Of a DNA stretch of 53,175 nucleotides, positions 30,833-53,062 are shown piece by piece; the first letter of the stretch is position 1; every line of letters starts with the position of its first letter. The notes below the pieces were generated by a model. That model was not told where the DNA came from. It made no database searches and saw only the letters and a program-made list of their open reading frames with translations. Location: positions 1 to 53,175 of the IMG/VR virus record IMGVR_UViG_3300032087_001346, one strand, 5' to 3'. Made by a program: the position numbers and the translations under genes. This DNA comes from a virus.

Positions 30833-31342
30833 CTATTTTAGCACATGTCCTTCCCTGCTTTTTCTATACTCAGCGGCAGGATCGTGTTTTGGCTGGACCT
30901 TCTCTCTGGTAAGAGCCTCTTCATCTTCTTCATCAAAGAAATCACACTTCAAAAACAACTTTGATGTTTCATCCTCACCAAGAACTTCAAGATATTTTAC
31001 TATCTCCTGTTCAAGTTCTGCTATTGACTTAGGTGTTTCATCCTCTTTAGCTGAACGAATGCGAGACAAAACTTCCAGTGCCTTGATGGCGCTGTTGGTA
31101 TGTCCATTATTTTTGGCATAGGTGTACTGATTTTCTATTTCAGATACAACATCAATACGAGTCTCAACTTCTTTCTCTAGCTCTTCGATGCGCTGCTTTA
31201 TGTCTTCGCGCTGAAGTAGTCTGTGTCCCTGTGTGTGAGCAGACCCTTCTGAGTATCCAGCAATCTTTGCTGACTCTGTAGCGTTACGGTAAAGAACGTA
31301 TGCCTGACAGAACTTTTCTTGTCTGACCTTTAGCTCTTTCAT
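30833..31342 (-). CDS. terS: Terminase small subunit-like protein
   Basis: The N-terminus KVRQEKFCQAYVLYRNATES followed by AKIAGYSEGSAHTQGHRLLQ and REDIKQRIEELEKE matches the Terminase_2 family: R-Q-E-K-F, A.N.T..A...GYS, G..LL....I. A helical middle and an acidic tail (FFDEEDEEALTREK) complete a normal 169-aa TerS. TerS recognises phage DNA and recruits TerL. Here it is on the opposite strand and about 28 kb from terL, as the last gene of the early arm, and its start overlaps the end of the fusion gene by 4 bp (ATGA). A non-terminase DNA-binding role is possible but less likely. Confidence 0.75.
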   Translation of the reverse strand: MKELKVRQEKFCQAYVLYRNATESAKIAGYSEGSAHTQGHRLLQREDIKQRIEELEKEVETRIDVVSEIENQYTYAKNNGHTNSAIKALEVLSRIRSAKEDETPKSIAELEQEIVKYLEVLGEDETSKLFLKCDFFDEEDEEALTREKVQPKHDPAAEYRKSREGHVLK

Positions 31343-33639
31343 GCTGCATCTTTCTCCAGAATAAAGTCTGTATAGTGAGGAGGATTATATTGCTTTGACA
31401 GTTTATAAACTTGAGACATGAGGGTATTATCGCCATAAAAGTTTATCTTCATTTCGATCTGGGGTTGATCGAATAGTTTCTCACAGTCTTGTGCCATAGC
31501 GAGAAGCTCACCCGTAGTCCAGAAGTGATGCTCGTTAATTTCGACTGGCATATACTTAGGACGTACACCGTCATCTAATTTCTGTTTCTTCTGCTCGTCT
31601 GTAAGACCGTCGATAGAACAGTCAAATCCAAACAAATGGAAATTCCTAAAGCCAAACACATGCATCATACCGATTGAACGCATTGCAGAGCATGTTCCGC
31701 CAGTGACAAATGTGGTAGACTCTTTGTCGATATTAATCTCTTGAGCAGCTTCTACCTTACCGCTGACAATATCAGCTACTGCTTGTGAATATGCATGCCA
31801 ACCGTATACGTTTTTTGTCTTCTCTAAGATAAACCGAGTTACTGTTGGGTCAGTCATAGAAGCGATAAAGAATTTGGTATGAGGGTCAATCTCTTTGAAT
31901 AACTCCTGACGCACAATTCCATGTGTGCTTGTTCCTGTTATTGGACGAGGATCAAGGATAACACATGCCCACGGTTGAATGCCAGCTTCTAACAGCATAG
32001 GATAACTGTGCTTAACGCAGACAATCTTTGCGTCATATTTCTTCTGCACCTGTTTAAGTTCATCAAAGTCAATAGAAGGACCGGCTGATGCAATAATAAT
32101 ATGTTCTTCATTCATTGCACAGTTTTGAACAAAATCCCAGCTATCTATCAGGTCTATATTCTCGTTAATGTTATCGAATATTTCCTGTTTAGGCACACAG
32201 TCCTTTGGTTGGATTATGATAGGTGTACGGCTAAGAGACTTAGGCAATCCATCAAGGTCTTCTGTCTTCAATCGAACAGCAAGATGAACAGTTCCACCGC
32301 CCTTAACTTTATCCTGTGAAGGAAGAACAAAGCACCTCATGTCTTCCTTTCCAATAGATTCAATAAGACGATTAGTTCCTAGAAACTCATCTTCAGGAAC
32401 TTTTCCATCTTTATCTTTGGCATAATAATCGTCAAACGTAACTACAGGAACATGGCTGAGATGCTTATAGTCAGAAAGAATAGTCTCTTCGCTATGACCA
32501 CCATCAATAAAGGCAAAGTCAATCTTCTTTAGTTCTTTTTTTGCAAGAGGCATAGTCTCTTTTGAATCACCCCTATGAAGAGAGAAGGTAAATTTCTTTT
32601 TCTGCTCCTTCATCTTAGCAGCAAAGTCATTTAGACGTTTTGTTACAGCATCAAAAGAATTATGCGCCTTTGCATTGTGTTCTTTTTTATCTGTCTCATC
32701 AGTTGCATCTTCAAACAAATCAAAGCCTACGTAGTGTACTTTGTTTACATTTTCAAACGCCGCAAGAGCCATCTCTACAGCCCGACCACCATTCCATGTT
32801 CCTACCTCTACGATATTCTTCGGTTTGTAATTACGAATAAGTTCTGCAAGCTGGCTATATCGAGGCAGTTTAATATCTGGTGAAACTGCACCATCATTAA
32901 TTTTGTTTTTTCGATTACCCTTATAGTGAATCATAAATTTACCGAGATTAGATTGAGGGAAGACATCTAAACCATCAGCACCTTCACTAAGATTATGAAC
33001 CTTCATGCCATGAGCGGCATAAATTTTAATGAATCGAGTAATAATAAAAGCGTCTGTCCACTCACGGTAAGCAGTAACTTCACCAATGTCATAACAACCA
33101 CGAATGTCTGCAAGGAAGTAGTGGCTATGCATGTTGTCTAAATTAAAACCTACAAAGCCTGTCTCACTAAAGTCAATATCCTTACGACCAAGATGTACCA
33201 AGTCTGCATCTTTTGGAAAAGCATCAAATAAAATTTCTTCAGATACTGGCGCTGTCGTTATAACATCAGCGTCTACCCAGATAAGCCAACCACCCTGCGC
33301 TTCTTTCTCTGACACTTCAAGAAAGTAGTCAGTAAGAGCATAAACCTTATGGCAAAATCTAGTAGCATCTAAGCGAAAATTATATTCTATTCTTCCACCT
33401 TCAGTTCCATCATGTTTAGCCATAATCTCTAAGAATTTTGATCTGTCTTCTACCTCATCCAGATCACGATATTCAATAATAGGAGATTGAGGAAAGTCTT
33501 TCTTCTGTTCTTCAGTTACAGTATCATAGTAGACAATCAATTTAAGATCATCAGCCCAATGCCGCACAACAGACTCAAGCATTTTTTTAGCGTAGACATC
33601 ATAGTGTTTGCCACAGAAGGACGTTACAAATCTAACCAT
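31339..33639 (-). CDS. Three-domain glycosyltransferase-methyltransferase-MptE-like fusion
   Basis: The 766-aa protein combines three modules. Residues 1-260 form a GT-A-like glycosyltransferase with a DxD motif (WVDADVIT, D123 and D125). Residues about 262-460 form a class I SAM methyltransferase of the Methyltransf_24 type (NIVEVGTWNGGRAVEMALA at 275-293, FAFIDGGHSEET at 375-386). Residues about 510-766 match the MptE-like/DUF115 family (HIIIASAGPSIDFDELK at 513-529, WACVILDPRP near 557). DUF115 proteins include flagellin-glycosylation Maf-type and pterin enzymes. The protein is probably a cytoplasmic glycan-modifying enzyme acting on a surface or virion glycoconjugate. It lies between the GT gene and terS, overlapping both by a few bases. 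Confidence 0.8.
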   Translation of the reverse strand: MVRFVTSFCGKHYDVYAKKMLESVVRHWADDLKLIVYYDTVTEEQKKDFPQSPIIEYRDLDEVEDRSKFLEIMAKHDGTEGGRIEYNFRLDATRFCHKVYALTDYFLEVSEKEAQGGWLIWVDADVITTAPVSEEILFDAFPKDADLVHLGRKDIDFSETGFVGFNLDNMHSHYFLADIRGCYDIGEVTAYREWTDAFIITRFIKIYAAHGMKVHNLSEGADGLDVFPQSNLGKFMIHYKGNRKNKINDGAVSPDIKLPRYSQLAELIRNYKPKNIVEVGTWNGGRAVEMALAAFENVNKVHYVGFDLFEDATDETDKKEHNAKAHNSFDAVTKRLNDFAAKMKEQKKKFTFSLHRGDSKETMPLAKKELKKIDFAFIDGGHSEETILSDYKHLSHVPVVTFDDYYAKDKDGKVPEDEFLGTNRLIESIGKEDMRCFVLPSQDKVKGGGTVHLAVRLKTEDLDGLPKSLSRTPIIIQPKDCVPKQEIFDNINENIDLIDSWDFVQNCAMNEEHIIIASAGPSIDFDELKQVQKKYDAKIVCVKHSYPMLLEAGIQPWACVILDPRPITGTSTHGIVRQELFKEIDPHTKFFIASMTDPTVTRFILEKTKNVYGWHAYSQAVADIVSGKVEAAQEINIDKESTTFVTGGTCSAMRSIGMMHVFGFRNFHLFGFDCSIDGLTDEQKKQKLDDGVRPKYMPVEINEHHFWTTGELLAMAQDCEKLFDQPQIEMKINFYGDNTLMSQVYKLSKQYNPPHYTDFILEKDAA

Positions 33640-34405
33640 TTCTTTTTACCATCTCAGAATAGAGTGTTGTCCACTCTTTTGCATACTTATTATCTATTTC
33701 TCTTTTGCCGTCCCAGCTATTATAGATAGGTCCACCAGTAGTAAAGTGAACGCACTTTGCATCAATCTTTGGATTTGAATGAGCATCTAGCCAGTTCCAT
33801 TCTTCGGGAATACTGCCAATGAGATTGTCTTCATTTTCTTTTTCAAGAAAACCAAATCTGTGCAGATAAGAACCGCTCTTTGTGCTTACGTCGTGGACAG
33901 TAAAATCTTTTAGCGCCTCATGCTCACAGTTCCAAAGAACTAAACTTGACCAGTTCTTTCTGAAATAGTTGGACTGAATGCGCCGGTCCATCTTAAAGTG
34001 ATGTTGTGGAGTATGATCGTGATGTACACAACTAACTGCATACTTAGGATCACAGTACCGCTCAAACAATTCTACTATGTCTGACTTAACAAACATATCG
34101 CAGTCCATAAACAGGGCATAACCCTCAAACTGATTTAGAAAAGGAACTAAAAAACGAGTGAAACTAAATTCAGTTGAGAAAGGTTTATCGTCAAAACAAT
34201 CCACAAATTGATTGTCTTCATTAATATACTGCGAACGAAAGTAAAGACCTGCTCGGCGTAGATTAGTTTGTTTTAAGGGAATAATATCTACAGGACTTGT
34301 AGCATATTTTCTAATGCTGTAGGACAAAACATCGAAGTAAGTCTTCTCTTTATCGTCGTATCCTACATATACTTTATATGGTGTATCGTACATGCTGTCT
34401 TTCAT
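33632..34405 (-). CDS. GT8-like glycosyltransferase
   Basis: The product has VYVGYDDKE near the start and FMDCDMFVKSDIVELFERYC, a classic DxD-containing GT-A element, with TEFSFTRFLVPFL upstream and HFTTGGPIYNSWDGK near the end. This fits GT8-like glycosyltransferases of marine phages. I choose ATG 34405 (MKDSMYDTPYKVYVG); a TTG seven codons upstream would lie in the hairpin and is unlikely. It overlaps the start of the three-domain fusion gene by 8 bp, so the two are a translational pair. Acceptor and donor sugars are unknown. Confidence 0.8.
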   Translation of the reverse strand: MKDSMYDTPYKVYVGYDDKEKTYFDVLSYSIRKYATSPVDIIPLKQTNLRRAGLYFRSQYINEDNQFVDCFDDKPFSTEFSFTRFLVPFLNQFEGYALFMDCDMFVKSDIVELFERYCDPKYAVSCVHHDHTPQHHFKMDRRIQSNYFRKNWSSLVLWNCEHEALKDFTVHDVSTKSGSYLHRFGFLEKENEDNLIGSIPEEWNWLDAHSNPKIDAKCVHFTTGGPIYNSWDGKREIDNKYAKEWTTLYSEMVKRNG

Positions 34406-34411
34406 AAAATG

Positions 34412-34438
34412 GTGGGGTGAAGACAATCCTCACCCCAC
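34412..34438 (-). terminator. Hairpin after hsp20
   Basis: GTGGGGTGA (34412-34420) and TCACCCCAC (34430-34438) are perfect 9-bp complements with a 9-nt loop. It is downstream of hsp20 and upstream of the GT gene. The T-run after it (CATTTTAT on the minus strand) is short, so partial termination or mRNA-end protection is likely. Confidence 0.6.
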
Positions 34439-34937: not shown

Positions 34938-34966
34938 ATGATATAATATCGTTAAGTAAAAGTCAA
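34938..34966 (-). promoter_or_regulatory. Strong sigma-70-type promoter for hsp20
   Basis: On the minus strand TTGACT (34961-34966) is followed after exactly 17 bp by TATCAT (34938-34943); each differs from consensus by one base. It overlaps the 3' end of the 2OG oxygenase gene and lies 62 bp upstream of the Hsp20 ATG. It is the best match to a host vegetative promoter that I see in the window. Confidence 0.7.
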
Positions 34967-35529
34967 GAGAATTTTTCTCCTCTGAACCAGCAAGTTAAAG
35001 CACATCTCTCTCCCTCTTTTACTTTAGTGACGCGGTGAAAGATAAAAGATGGAAAGACAATTATACTTCCCCTTCTTCTCATTTCCTTTACTGTCTTAAA
35101 TTTATTTGGTGCTTGCGGGTGGACAAAGTTTTGAACCTGAAAATCTCCACCCTTAAAGTCATCATTCAAAGTAATAGATATAGCCATCTTTCTAAGATAA
35201 GGATCGCTAGGTTTTTCTACTCCAGTATCTACGTGCCAGTCATAGAACTGACCCTTGCCGTAAAAAGATATTTGTGGAATTTCAAAAGAGTTTATATTGA
35301 AATCCCACCCAGCCTTCTCATTGGCTATGTCGATGTACAACTCTAGTATTTCTGAGAGTTCAGGGTTAGACAACCAAGCTACTCGATTGTTTCTAATTTC
35401 AGAAAGAACCTTGTCATCGCCATCTTTGTAAACCTCTGCCTCTTTACTGTCCAATTCTTTTGCAATAGAAATAAGACCGTCACAGAATGCCTTGGGCAGA
35501 ACCTCTTTAAAGCAGTAATACGTTAGCAT
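34963..35529 (-). CDS. 2OG-Fe(II) oxygenase
   Basis: The 188-aa product has the iron ligands HVD (H99, D101) in FYDWHVDTG and H165 in FIFHRVTKV, and R175 for 2-oxoglutarate, in the order of the prolyl-4-hydroxylase/PKHD superfamily. Its reaction would be oxygen-dependent hydroxylation of a protein or small molecule. Such genes are common in cyanophages and marine phages; substrates are not known. It follows RNR with no gap and precedes hsp20. Confidence 0.85.
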   Translation of the reverse strand: MLTYYCFKEVLPKAFCDGLISIAKELDSKEAEVYKDGDDKVLSEIRNNRVAWLSNPELSEILELYIDIANEKAGWDFNINSFEIPQISFYGKGQFYDWHVDTGVEKPSDPYLRKMAISITLNDDFKGGDFQVQNFVHPQAPNKFKTVKEMRRRGSIIVFPSFIFHRVTKVKEGERCALTCWFRGEKFS

Positions 35530-37215
35530 TTACACCCCGCAACTTCCACCATGACCCGTAATGTCACAGATATCGTGCGTCTCTACACCTTCTTCAAACT
35601 CTTCGCCCAGTTTATCTACTGCTTCAGAGTATGGCACATTGGTTAGTGGTTGTCCACCACGACATGAATCAGGGTAAACAGTAAAGCCACGTAGGCGATG
35701 TGCGTAAGAAGCAAGAGTATTAGCAAAGTCTTCAACAGTGTCTTCATTATTTAACTTACTCCCCCATGCCGGAAGGTTAATGGTTGAGGAGATAGACATA
35801 TCAACGTAGTCCTGTACGTCAGCCTGAAATTTAATTCTACGTTTGTAGTCATCAGCTAGATCAAGAGCAGATTCAATCTTTTCTGGATCAACCCCATAAA
35901 GATCAATCAACTCCTGCGCTGCACTGTCAACTACGTACTGATAATGCCAGCGTGTACCGCCCTTCAAATAGCGGCGTTTATAAGCCACGGCAAAGATTGG
36001 TTCTACTCCAGTGCTTGTTCCTGCGAGAATACCAATCGAGCCAGTCGGCGCAATCGCTCTGTTAGCTACAGGACGACTAATGCCCAGAGTGTCAGCAAAT
36101 TTCTGAGACGTTACATCACTCATTCCTTTGTACACAGACAACCACTGATGCAATTCATCAGTAACTTCGTACTTAGAACCACGCTTGATAAGCCATTCAT
36201 GCATACCCATAAGGCCAAGACCAAGCCTACGGTTTTTCTCTCTTACATCGTAGACCTTTCGGTAGGGCAGTTTTGCCCGTAGTGTGCCACAGAGAAGAAA
36301 CTTTGTAGCAAGTTCTACAATGTCGTTAAATTCTTTGAGAGTTTCAATACGACCAAGGTTTAAAGAACCAAGATTACATACATCAGAATCATCAGCGGAA
36401 CAGACTTCCGTACAAGCGTTGCGAAGCGTCTCATTTTCTTTTTCAAAGAAGTTGAAACTAAATCCCGGCTCTGCTGTGCTAAGAGCTTGCTTGACATTCT
36501 TTGCAAAGACATCCCCCACCTCTCCAGTGCGCCAGTATTTTATTAGCCACTCAGTGTCATAGTTTACGCTGATGTTTGTCATGTCTAAAGGAGCAATGAA
36601 ATTAAAGTCCTGCTCCTTAACCTGACCAATAGAAAAGCCGGTACTACCCACCGGCATATCATACCAGTTCTTACACTCAAGAAACTTATCTATGTCTCTG
36701 TGTTGCCAATTAAGGCTGGCATAAATGGCAGACCTTCGTGATCCACCCTGCATAACTCTACGACCAATCTCGTTAATCATCTGCATCTTAGGAATAGGAC
36801 CAGAGGATAGCCCACCAGTTCCAGCGAGAATACGCCCCTCTTCACGATAGACAGAATAATCTATACCAATACCACCGCCAGTCATAAGACAAGATTCTGA
36901 CTTCCATGATATGTTGGCCCAGTCTTCTCGCGTATCTTCCTCGGCCTTTAACAGATAACAATTATTGAAGAACTTGTTTGGTCGGCCAGCATAGTACAAA
37001 TATCTACCGCCGGGAATAAACTTTAGATCAGTGATGTATTTAGTAAGGTCTGCTTTGTCTTCCTTACTCATCTTGTGTTGGCATACATCCTCTACAAGAA
37101 CTGCCGCTAGGCTAGACCAAGTTTCACACCCTGTATGAGCGTACTTGTGTTTGAAAATATCTTCGCTAAACTTTGAGCGGAACATTGGGTTTTCATTGGA
37201 ACGGAATGAAGGCAT
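35530..37215 (-). CDS. nrdJ: Class II ribonucleotide reductase
   Basis: The 561-aa product makes deoxyribonucleotides from ribonucleotides. The active-site Asn-Cys-Glu pattern NACTE (about residue 267), CNLGSLNLGR, the PTGSIGILAGTSTGVEPIFA substrate loop and a C-terminal Cys-containing tail (CDITGHGGSCGV) support adenosylcobalamin-dependent class II RNR. It is shorter than most cellular NrdJ proteins and has no obvious N-terminal ATP cone. It would need host cobalamin and an external reductant; I see no thioredoxin gene. With dCMP deaminase and ThyX it forms the dNTP-supply set. GGAG precedes the ATG. Confidence 0.88.
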   Translation of the reverse strand: MPSFRSNENPMFRSKFSEDIFKHKYAHTGCETWSSLAAVLVEDVCQHKMSKEDKADLTKYITDLKFIPGGRYLYYAGRPNKFFNNCYLLKAEEDTREDWANISWKSESCLMTGGGIGIDYSVYREEGRILAGTGGLSSGPIPKMQMINEIGRRVMQGGSRRSAIYASLNWQHRDIDKFLECKNWYDMPVGSTGFSIGQVKEQDFNFIAPLDMTNISVNYDTEWLIKYWRTGEVGDVFAKNVKQALSTAEPGFSFNFFEKENETLRNACTEVCSADDSDVCNLGSLNLGRIETLKEFNDIVELATKFLLCGTLRAKLPYRKVYDVREKNRRLGLGLMGMHEWLIKRGSKYEVTDELHQWLSVYKGMSDVTSQKFADTLGISRPVANRAIAPTGSIGILAGTSTGVEPIFAVAYKRRYLKGGTRWHYQYVVDSAAQELIDLYGVDPEKIESALDLADDYKRRIKFQADVQDYVDMSISSTINLPAWGSKLNNEDTVEDFANTLASYAHRLRGFTVYPDSCRGGQPLTNVPYSEAVDKLGEEFEEGVETHDICDITGHGGSCGV

Positions 37216-39080: not shown

Positions 39081-39305
39081 CTAAACAGCCATTAGTTCTG
39101 GCTTATCAGACATAAGTTTATAACGTGTGTAATTCGCACCGTCTGGACGTTTTGCGGTTACAGCGTCGATAAGATAACCAGACTTACGAAGGTCTGAGAT
39201 TGTTGCTGTGAGATTTTCACACCACCCATTCTCAATGGCAGTCTTACGAGTGACACGCATACCCTTCTTCAGTGCGCGTAGAACTTTAATCTGATTGTTA
39301 ATCAT
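39081..39305 (-). CDS. Small winged-helix-like DNA-binding protein
   Basis: The 74-aa product [40 protein letters not shown] and [10 protein letters not shown] fits a winged helix (HTH_39-type): a helix-turn-helix then a beta wing. It could be a transcription regulator or replication accessory. It overlaps the GMD stop by a few bases. Confidence 0.65.
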
Positions 39306-40321
39306 GTTAGTTTTCCTTCACTTTGATATAGAAACATCTCATCAATCAACTGATGAAATGACACTTTTGTTTGCCAACCCAACTTCTGTTTGGCTTTGGT
39401 TGAATCTCCAAGAAGAAGATCAACCTCTGTTGGTCGATAGAATTTAGGACTACAATCGACAAGAACTTTGTTGCCATCTTTGCCCACGGTGTTTACTCCT
39501 TCGCCTGACCAAGACAAAGAAATACCAAGAAACTTTTCAAAGGAATAGTCAATCAACTCTTTGATGGAGTGTGTCTCTCCAGTAGCAAGAACATAATCTT
39601 CTGGATTGTCTTGCTGTAACATCAGCCACATTCCCTCTACATAATCCTTTGCACTTCCCCAATCACGCTTGCTGTATACATTACCAACAGTCAACTTGTC
39701 AAGTCTTTTTTCTTTAATATCATTCACAGCCTTGACAATCTTTTGTGTTACAAAATTATCCCCTCTCATCGGAGATTCGTGATTAAACAGAATACCGTTA
39801 CAGGCGTACATGTTGTAAGCCTCTCGATAATTCTTAACCATCCAATAGCTGTACAACTTAGCCACGCCATAGGGCGAGCGAGGATAGAAGGGAGTAGTCT
39901 CGGTCTGCGGAGTTTCTACTACCTTCCCATACAACTCTGAAGTAGATGCTTGATAGAACTTACAACTGTCAATCATTCCAAGTGATCTAATTGCCTCAAG
40001 CAATCGAGTAGTACCAAGACCGTCAACATCACCAGTGTATTCAGGAATATCAAAACTAATACGAACATCAGACTGTGCAGCAAGATTATAAATCTCCTGT
40101 GGCTCAACTTCACTTATGATTCTGAGAAGGCCAGAAGTGTCTGTCAAATCTCCATACAGAACTTCAAAATGCTCGCCCTTGTTCAGCTTGTTGATACGTG
40201 TGAAGTTATCTACTGAAGACCTACGAACAACAGAATATACATCATAACCCTTGTCCATCAGGAGTTGAGACAAATAATATCCATCCTGTCCAGAACCGCC
40301 AGTTATTAACGCTCGTTTCAT
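39302..40321 (-). CDS. gmd: GDP-mannose 4,6-dehydratase
   Basis: The 339-aa product is a short-chain dehydrogenase family sugar-nucleotide enzyme that turns GDP-D-mannose into GDP-4-keto-6-deoxymannose. It has the NAD(P) motif [20 protein letters not shown] at residues 6-25, the catalytic S/T...Y...K region around [10 protein letters not shown] and [14 protein letters not shown], and [20 protein letters not shown], all typical of GMD. Length is normal. In a phage, the likely role is to supply deoxysugars for glycan or virion modification by the glycosyltransferases downstream. It lies between a terminator and replication genes. Confidence 0.92.
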
Positions 40322-51277: not shown

Positions 51278-51329
51278 TATGTTATCCTTTTCTGTTTTTT
51301 TACCCTTCTGGATGTTAAGAAAGCATAAT

Positions 51330-51698
51330 TTACACTCAAGATTTTCTGCAAAACAAAGGATTTATAAATATATAATTTTTAATCAAATCAGTGCTCCAGT
51401 TATTGAAAAAAAAAGAGGATGGCATGTTAGAAAACCTTTGGATTTAGATTTAATTAAAAAGGGAGCAAAAAAATTAGTTGGAACTCATGATTACTCTACT
51501 TTTAGATCTTCAAGCTGCCATGCTAAAAGTCCAATTAAGACAATTAAATCAGTGAAAGTTAAATCATTGAAAAGTAAAATAGAAATTGAATTTAACTCAC
51601 AATCTTTTTTACAGCAACAGGTTAGATCTATGGTTGGTTGCTTAAAATACTTAGGTGAAAAAAAATGGGATTTACAAAAATTTAATAAGGTGCTCTCT
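51330..51698 (+). pseudogene. truA: tRNA pseudouridine synthase TruA fragment (bacterial)
   Basis: The frame carries HSRFSAKQRIYKYIIFNQIS, GTHDYSTFRSSSCHAKSPIK and FLQQQVRSMVGCLKYLGEKK, the C-terminal two-thirds of TruA, AT-rich and Lys-rich like SAR11-type bacteria. The N-terminus with the catalytic Asp and the true C-terminus are absent; the frame turns into antisense of the next fragment after residue KVLSN. It is cut at both ends without phage context. I treat it as foreign DNA joined to the phage. Confidence 0.75.
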
Positions 51699-52078
51699 AA
51701 TTCTTCTTTCTCAGAAACTAGTACTTTTATTAAATTATTCTCTGCAGTAGATTCATCAAATTCAGCAATTTTAATAGTATTTTTATAAATAGATTTTTTC
51801 TTTTTGTAATGAACTTTTATCTCATAATTACCTGAAAGTAATTCAATTTTAAAAACTGTATTTCTTGTATTTTGTGAAATTAACAGAGTCATATCTTTAA
51901 AATTCTGAGAAATTAAATATACCATTCTCCATTTCCAAAACTGAAACTTCTTTGTAACTGTATAAAGTTTATTTTCTTTAGCATCTTTAATTTCTGCACA
52001 AGTTTTTCCAAACTCCATATACCAAAAAGAACTAAAAATAAGTTCTTTAGCATTTTCTTTAGTTAAATAAAGTTCATT
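51695..52078 (-). pseudogene. Fragment of a bacterial hypothetical gene
   Basis: The minus frame LYLTKENAKELIFSSFWYME continues KENKLYTVTKKFQFWKWRMV and KTVFKIELLSGNYEIKVHYK-like strands (residues from about 230 to 345 of the fused frame). It looks like a real AT-rich beta/alpha protein, but both ends are lost: it runs into transposase at 52079 and into antisense truA at about 51695. No family identified. Confidence 0.45.
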
Positions 52079-52696
52079 GTTATTCTGTTCTATTTCGTAC
52101 CACCAGTTGTAGTCGTAATAACCTTTATCAAATACATAGGTGGCACCCTCTTCTATTTCTGTTTCTCGCCCAACTTCCACGTCATTAATATTGGGCGCTG
52201 TCATCTTCATTTGCACCGGCAATTCCTGTTTAGGTGCGTAGATCATGTGGACTTTTAGCCCTTGCGTTCGATAATTATGATTATCCTTTGTCCATTCATC
52301 ATACCCTAGGCCCTTAAGGGGAATGGGGCTTGAGTCAATCAAGTACAGCAAGTCTTTTAACTCACTTCTAACCTGCCTGTGAGCTTCGCCTATTAGCCTC
52401 CCGCAAACATGTTCGAACAACTCACAGCTTCGATTTCTATTGGCATCAGCCAATGTAGAGCGCTTAATTTCGCGAGTGCCCAGATGGTAATGCTGCTCTT
52501 TATGACCGTTAAAGCTTGCTTTCAATTCTCGCAAACTTTCGCACCCCGAAACCTGTGCATATATCATCGCAATCAGTTGATCCCAACTGGTAAACCCTTT
52601 GTTGTGTTTGTCATTACCTTGCTGATCAACTATTTTTTCAAAACTTCCTCGAGGAAGGCCTTTCATTAGATCTCTAAATCGTGTATTTCTATACAT
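52079..52696 (-). mobile_element. IS4-family transposase fragment
   Basis: From MYRNTRFRDLMKGLPRGSFE (start at 52696), the frame has DUF4372-type helices (TSWDQLIAMIYAQVSGCESL, LRELKASFNGHKEQHYHLGT) then the DDE transposase start: first Asp in YLIDSSPIPLKGLGYDEWTK, second in YVFDKGYYDYNWWYEIEQNN. After that Asn it is replaced by unrelated sequence, so the catalytic Glu and C-terminus are missing. It is a truncated, inactive copy. It belongs to bacterial chromosome DNA and not to the phage. Confidence 0.85.
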
Positions 52697-53062
52697 CTTG
52701 CAGCACCTAAGTTTCGAGTCGTGTCTTAACTTTGTACCTTTATAGGTCAGGTGCTGCAACCCTTCTTAATCAATCCCCCAATTTTATTCCGGACAGTAGT
52801 GCGCCTACGCGGGAATGACGACGGTGGGATATTATAGTGTAAGGGGTAAACCTCTATACATGAATTTGTCAGCTATCGGGAACATATTTAGCCAATTTCA
52901 GATGTAGTGTCTGAGTCTCAAATTAGCACACATTCGTCATTACCACGTAAAGCGGCAAAATACAGAATTCATTGTTTTAAAAAGGCTTAGTGCCTGTCCA
53001 CTTCGAACTAAAAATCAAGCACATAGCCAGTACAAGTTGACTATGAACTACGGTTTTACACC
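52697..53062. other. Bacterial intergenic DNA, no gene seen
   Basis: This stretch holds the IS flank, with the outer inverted-end-like segment near 52735-52770, and CCTACGCGGGAATGACG (52804-52820), which resembles the short 'GTCATTCCCGCG' dispersed repeats of gammaproteobacterial genomes. I see no gene and no phage signal here. It supports bacterial origin for the right end. Confidence 0.5.

Follow-up and report, generated by a model that had tools for sequence, protein, structure and literature searches.

A conserved phage fusion of glycosyltransferase, methyltransferase and MptE-like domains with a GT8-like partner gene: a putative glycosylation unit in uncultured phages

The virus record IMGVR_UViG_3300032087_001346 of IMG/VR (53,175 nucleotides, here called the window and analyzed as a whole) encodes a 766-aa protein that, according to an initial annotation made from the sequence alone, joins a DxD glycosyltransferase, an S-adenosylmethionine (SAM) methyltransferase and an MptE-like (DUF115) domain. 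This locus poses two questions: (i) whether such a fusion is a genuine enzyme architecture and (ii) what it would glycosylate. The three domains and their order were borne out by Pfam, by fold models and by at least 79 relatives. We conclude that the fusion is a conserved phage enzyme architecture made of known kinds of enzymes, with a fixed partner gene that encodes a GT8-like glycosyltransferase.

For the first question, we scanned IMG/VR with the whole protein, with its alignment and with its GT-A glycosyltransferase domain, and obtained loci L001 to L009, L012 to L087 and L091 to L163; the last of these scans alone recovered at least 577 relatives. Once identical copies and proteins truncated at contig ends were set aside, at least 91 distinct complete viral proteins have the GT-A to MptE order; at least 12 lack the methyltransferase, and at least 79 carry it between the other two, the three-domain order that the initial annotation had proposed to look for in viral databases. 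Three-domain proteins occur in independent assemblies, down to about 30 to 50% identity. Where synonymous sites were unsaturated (relatives at 97 to 98% and 60 to 83% identity), dN/dS was 0.14 or lower in every domain, and all three domains are, judging from these ratios, under purifying selection. Among the matches listed, the GT8-like gene lies upstream of the fusion in all 85 distinct loci with enough sequence, and in 78 of these the distance between the two genes is -112 to +54 nt; starts were picked mechanically, so overlaps across loci are approximate.

A quick tree of 72 GT-A domains groups the fused phage forms together (38 rows, SH-aLRT 99), with the methyltransferase lost more than once within the group. 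On nearby branches are a GT-A gene beside a methyltransferase-MptE gene (L162 and L163) and another GT-A-MptE pair (L142 and L079), and a long, uncertain branch (L086) has MptE, GT-A, methyltransferase and GT8 as four adjacent genes. The modules thus occur fused, half-fused or as separate neighbors, so that the parts belong together either way. The occurrence of the domains as separate genes in other phages might suggest that misassembly or read-through has joined unrelated genes here; that explanation has a negligible probability and, like chance, is excluded by the number of distinct three-domain proteins, their single clade and the purifying selection. The initial annotation had allowed that the domains might be separate in all homologs or lack conserved catalytic residues. 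Instead the fusion is conserved, and so are residues of catalytic type, among them the DxD motif (D123 and D125, kept in 89 of the 91 proteins).

Domain 1 was recognized only by its fold. No Pfam family matched the first 255 aa or so of the fusion, and searches of solved structures with the single sequence and with a GT-A profile gave no match. AlphaFold2, run on aa 1-255 with 23 relatives, gave a model with a mean predicted local distance difference test (pLDDT) score of 90.9 and a predicted template modeling (pTM) score of 0.89. Foldseek against the Protein Data Bank (PDB) returned 327 matches at E ≤ 0.001, and the best 50 of the 327 are GT-A-type glycosyltransferases. The top neighbors are GT8/GT6-type GT-A enzymes (E about 1e-8 to 1e-7, TM about 0.45-0.6), including alpha3GalT (1k4v, 3e-8), glycogenin (6eqj, 3.7e-8) and LARGE1 (9e1t, 5e-8); WbbM (6u4b) was also matched. 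By the model, domain 1 is a GT-A enzyme through fold-level kinship, short of a family assignment. The metal-binding H238 is kept in 89 of the 91 proteins, and W194 and D196 show little or no variation. Domain 1 and the partner share the GT-A fold or profile, the DxD motif and a C-terminal His with retaining GT8/GT-A enzymes such as glycogenin, LARGE1, WbbM and XXYLT1, but differ from them in that domain 1 has no Pfam family and the partner falls below the GT8 cut-off. Specifically, the GT8-like protein scores 18.1 bits against a Glyco_transf_8 cut-off of 24.3, its relative in Pelagibacter phage Mosig clears the cut-off at 30.9 bits, and its profile matches WbbM.

Domain 2 is a Methyltransf_24 domain by Pfam (aa 277-396, 42.1 bits against a cut-off of 26.3), and its profile matches MycF (4x7u, E 3.6e-4), a macrolide-sugar O-methyltransferase; enzymes of the MycF type O-methylate sugars. 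Domain 2 resembles MycF/TylF and rhamnosyl O-methyltransferase/CmcI in motifs and profile. It differs in staying below their cut-offs (19.0 against 23.0 bits for TylF, PF05711; RMNT_CmcI was likewise not reached) and in being covalently joined to glycosyltransferases. Every one of the 79 proteins that have the domain carries E278, G280, D307 and D403, whereas D379 is kept in 67 of them, H382 in 68 and D404 in 68. As the methyltransferase is absent from 12 of the 91 proteins and has changed DGGH/DD motif residues in 11 more, the constant core is, as far as the alignment tells, the two transferase-like domains, and methylation is optional. Of 53 representative loci, 13 have an additional 250-aa methyltransferase (phrog_24759) near the fusion, as at L151 (8979-9731).

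Domain 3 matches MptE-like PF01973 over nearly the whole profile (aa 487-676, profile positions 3-168 of 171; 61.1 bits against a cut-off of 34.6). In a Foldseek search with its AlphaFold2 model (pLDDT 83.1), Maf of M. magneticum (5mu5) came first at 4e-7 and M. jannaschii MptE (8sd5) second at 5e-6; CstII and sialyltransferases were weak matches (about 0.03). Maf also ranks first by sequence profile (0.003), and NCBIfam PseD is weakly matched (5e-6), which agrees with the kinship to flagellin glycosylation that the initial annotation ascribed to DUF115. K543, D563-P-R565, G647-G648, R654 and D673 are invariant or nearly so in the 91 proteins. In L004 to L009 and similar relatives the GPS motif is reduced to SGG by a one-residue gap, with the other core residues invariant. 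Maf proteins O-glycosylate flagellin Ser/Thr in the cytoplasm (PMC11339370; PMC7591256) and consist of a degenerate Rossmann N-domain, a central MAF_flag10 domain and a helical C-domain (PMC11339370). That layout is not present here. The likeness to Maf lies in the PF01973 match and the top fold match, whereas the phage protein has no Maf-type N- or C-terminal domains and places its MptE-like domain at the C-terminus, behind GT-A and methyltransferase; moreover, the phage records carry no CMP-nonulosonate synthesis genes, and there is no flagellin in a phage.

Domain 3 might instead be a true MptE-type kinase, that is, a 6-hydroxymethylpterin pyrophosphokinase or another pyrophosphoryl transferase that activates a donor, for example, and transfers no sugar. 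The archaeal enzyme shares the Pfam family and the fold, and the match covers more of its own length than of the larger Maf (TMt 0.66 against 0.28). However, its phage context is one of glycan enzymes rather than of pterin biosynthesis: the domain always occurs with glycosyltransferase and often with methyltransferase modules, pterin genes were not beside it in the loci read, and Maf leads by both sequence profile and fold. We consider a kinase improbable; the proposal is limited to domain 3 and compatible with either acceptor model discussed below.

In the window, an 8-nt overlap (33632-33639) joins the GT8-like gene to the fusion, as first annotated, and the stop codon of the fusion overlaps the start of the small terminase subunit (TerS) gene by 4 nt (ATGA), a point absent from the initial annotation. 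A terminator-like hairpin (minimum free energy -21.1 kcal/mol, z -3.9) sets these three genes apart from the upstream HSP20 gene; in close relatives this position is occupied by a hairpin that differs in sequence. The GT8-like gene itself holds up, but its start, first placed at 34405, is probably ATG 34393 rather than 34405 or TTG 34426, because the hairpin spans 34412-34438 and 253 aa is the length found in near relatives. Coordinates are collected in Table 1.

Table 1. Features of the putative glycosylation unit and related genes in the window (nt, nucleotides; aa, amino acids; ORF, open reading frame)
Feature	Position	Strand	Motifs or remarks	Basis
766-aa fusion protein: GT-A glycosyltransferase, methyltransferase, MptE/Maf-like domain	31339..33639	-	ATG start	intact ORF
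Domain 1 (aa 1-255), GT-A glycosyltransferase	32875..33639	-	DxD = D123/D125 (nt 33265-33273); W194/D196; C-terminal HxKGxxK (H238..K244)	AlphaFold2, Foldseek, conservation, natural stand-alone forms
Domain 2 (about aa 256-462), class I SAM methyltransferase, Methyltransf_24 / TylF-MycF-like	32254..32874	-	E278xGTWxGG; D307; D379GGHS; D403-D404	Pfam, profile
Domain 3 (about aa 463-766), MptE-like/DUF115 (Maf_flag10)	31342..32253	-	S518xGPS; K543-H544; D563-P-R565; T572-H-G574; G647-G; R654; GFD673; GEL712	PF01973, AlphaFold2, Foldseek
GT8-like glycosyltransferase, 253 aa	33632..34393	-	alternative starts 34405, TTG 34426	
Small terminase subunit (TerS)	30833..31342	-		Terminase_2, 59.7 bits
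Terminator-like hairpin, 12-bp, between HSP20 and GT8-like genes	34412..34438	-		
GDP-mannose 4,6-dehydratase (gmd equivalog)	39302..40321	-		TIGR01472

The fusion was found in none of 50,697 phage records (INPHARED), where only the GT-A part was recovered, in Pelagibacter phage Mosig and a spring podovirus. In Mosig (EXVC030M, Mosig_00188-00191), a GT-A gene adjoins a GT8-like gene, with two FkbM methyltransferases and a sulfotransferase alongside; this arrangement resembles the unit but consists of separate genes, with methyltransferases of the FkbM type and no MptE-like domain found. A nucleotide search with positions 1-25000 of the window gave no match to phage records. The literature searched holds no paper on phage MptE-like proteins or on this fusion. 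The order, which the initial annotation did not recognize from characterized phage proteins, is thus new to INPHARED and to the literature searched but not to sequence collections: environmental phage contigs already carry it, and so apparently does UniProt A0A6J7X5Q0 (714 aa, "methyltransferase domain containing protein"), for which the alignment covered the glycosyltransferase part only. The window polymerase is nearest to those of Pelagibacter podophages HTVC103P/104P at 48% identity, which makes a marine alphaproteobacterial host plausible.

Across 84,980 bacterial and archaeal genomes the whole fusion has no relative; the GT-A domain alone occurs at 18 loci. One of these, L165, is a contig of a Myxococcales metagenome-assembled genome (MAG; QZKR01000020.1, 50118 bp) with the same size and an identical GT-A domain as the viral record IMGVR_UViG_3300007351_000013 (L162), and is probably a phage contig binned into that MAG. 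Ten bacterial chromosomes (nine from SAR116, one from another pseudomonadote) have the GT-A domain with a GT8-like gene close by. In those read in detail, an asparagine-synthase-like amidotransferase and an FkbM methyltransferase are near and a tetratricopeptide repeat (TPR) protein adjoins; its C-terminus has no match in the PDB and by eye resembles TPR-type flagellin glycosyltransferases such as FlmG (PMC7591256). The GT-A/GT8 pair is either a module older than the phage fusion or one that moved between phage and host. A Neomarinimicrobiota MAG contig (L180, 14595-16095) has two GT-A-domain genes and a GT8-like gene, along with KdsA-like (DAHP_synth_1) and KdsB-like (CTP_transf_3) genes, and a supply of CMP-3-deoxy-D-manno-octulosonate (CMP-Kdo) beside the GT-A/GT8 module is possible there.

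For the donor sugar, the window encodes a GDP-mannose 4,6-dehydratase (486 bits against a TIGR01472 cut-off of 415) on the strand of the unit, non-contiguous and 4.9 kb from the GT8-like gene; in many relatives it directly follows TerS. The enzyme is a likely supplier of donor sugar. Since 12 of 20 whole records encode it (all 10 of the window and near relatives, two of 10 divergent ones), it is a partner in part of the family and not a defining member. The window holds no second enzyme of the short-chain dehydrogenase/reductase type, so that the step after GDP-4-keto-6-deoxymannose would come from the host or from an unrecognized gene; it also holds no UDP-sugar dehydrogenase (PF03721). The methylated deoxysugar suggested at first therefore suits the dehydratase clade but not the rest of the family, where the dehydratase, or an intact methyltransferase, may be missing.

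Addressing the second question, we propose that the four modules (GT8-like, GT-A, sugar-type O-methyltransferase and Maf/MptE-like) would act as one unit, and that this unit very probably makes a glycan of some kind. Nucleotide sugars are the donors of GT-A/GT8 enzymes. Both GT-A enzymes, together with the Maf/MptE-like domain, would draw on such sugars, in the dehydratase clade probably GDP-6-deoxy-hexoses derived from the phage GDP-mannose dehydratase, to build a short glycan. The methyltransferase would cap a sugar hydroxyl, and the growing glycan may be handed from domain to domain along the fusion. The acceptor would most likely be a phage-encoded protein, glycosylated in the cytoplasm during late gene expression much as Maf enzymes modify flagellin ahead of its export, yielding virions with a methylated glycan. 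We give this virion model not quite an even chance. Its strictest form, a self-contained cytoplasmic O-glycosylation machine that places a methylated oligosaccharide on a structural protein of the phage itself, is rather unlikely. Phage glycosyltransferases glycosylate capsid or tail-tube proteins of mycobacteriophages (Freeman et al. 2023, cited in PMC12619734 and PMC10877033). Compared by description only, these phage-encoded enzymes acting on structural proteins offer a possible mode of working, but the cited accounts, as far as they go, mention no methyltransferase/Maf fusion for them.

Alternatively, the unit could place a methylated sugar on host lipopolysaccharide, O-antigen, capsule or another surface glycan, for example to keep out superinfecting phages or to stop progeny from adsorbing to debris. 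This is possible without being probable. It would account for the likeness to surface-glycan enzymes (WbbM, by GT8 profile and by Foldseek), for the GDP-mannose dehydratase, which is widespread in cyanophages, and for the chromosomal SAR116 copies near an amidotransferase and an FkbM methyltransferase. However, polyprenyl-phosphate enzymes, a flippase, an acyltransferase and a membrane-bound Gtr-type enzyme were not noted among the annotated window genes (some small ORFs were outside the search), and both proteins look soluble, with no hydrophobic stretch of membrane-span length (maximum 19-residue Kyte-Doolittle 0.98 for the fusion and 0.89 for the GT8-like protein). An integrase was not noticed either, which would leave little time for a lasting change of serotype. 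We infer that a phage (virion) protein is somewhat more likely as acceptor than the host surface, because of the Maf-like domain, the solubility, the lipid-carrier genes not noticed and the overlap with a packaging gene. TerS is found downstream within 2.5 kb in 53 of 77 loci among the matches listed, and this and the overlap in the window are consistent with late expression. The SAR116 pair adjoining the TPR protein was also counted, by eye, for a protein acceptor.

Several observations weigh against a virion acceptor. We infer both acceptor and donor. The nearness of TerS may reflect genome order alone in some phage lineages, and a promoter scan found promoter-like sites around the unit no commoner than chance. 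The SAR116 neighbors, amidotransferase and FkbM methyltransferase, are those of surface-polysaccharide clusters. The GPS motif of domain 3 has a gap at P521 in 33 of the 91 proteins, and the CMP-sugar synthetase (CTP_transf_3) that supplies the nonulosonic acids of Maf was found in none of the 20 records, with the positive control matched; the host could still supply CMP-nonulosonic acid. A third acceptor, modified bases of phage DNA, is very improbable. Diverse phage glycosyltransferases decorate DNA (Pyle et al. 2024, as cited in PMC12619734), and a 2-oxoglutarate (2OG)-Fe(II) oxygenase gene is nearby (34963-35529, minus strand). By domain match, however, this oxygenase is PKHD-type (PF13640) and not Tet_JBP; a thymidylate-synthase/hydroxymethylase (PF00303) was found in none of the 20 records and a C5-cytosine methylase (PF00145) not in the window, each with its positive control matched. 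A Tet_JBP search matched none of the 20 records, and its positive control likewise had no match.

The oxygenase gene directly follows a B12-type (NrdJ-like) ribonucleotide reductase (35530-37215, minus strand), upstream of HSP20, and a ribonucleotide reductase often neighbors the unit in relatives. At the right edge of the record, a partial match to TruA (tRNA pseudouridine synthase; 51279-51788, plus strand) overlaps a DUF4372/DDE_Tnp_1 transposase ORF (51491-52759, minus strand), and 28-nt imperfect inverted repeats (51847-51874 and 52956-52983) bracket part of this region. The stretch is bacterial-type DNA: an insertion sequence, host flank or an assembly join.

Overall, the architecture is phage-specific and strictly conserved, is present in many lineages of uncultured phages and in no sequenced isolate searched, and its fused, half-fused and separate forms are natural guides to domain boundaries and partners. 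With a host acceptor, the unit would be a compact means of altering cell surfaces. With the virion as acceptor, methylated glycans would be a common and overlooked trait of environmental phages, with effects on adsorption, decay and recognition. Should the structural-protein reading be true, this would be a Maf-type glycosyltransferase with a target other than flagellin, widespread in uncultured phages.

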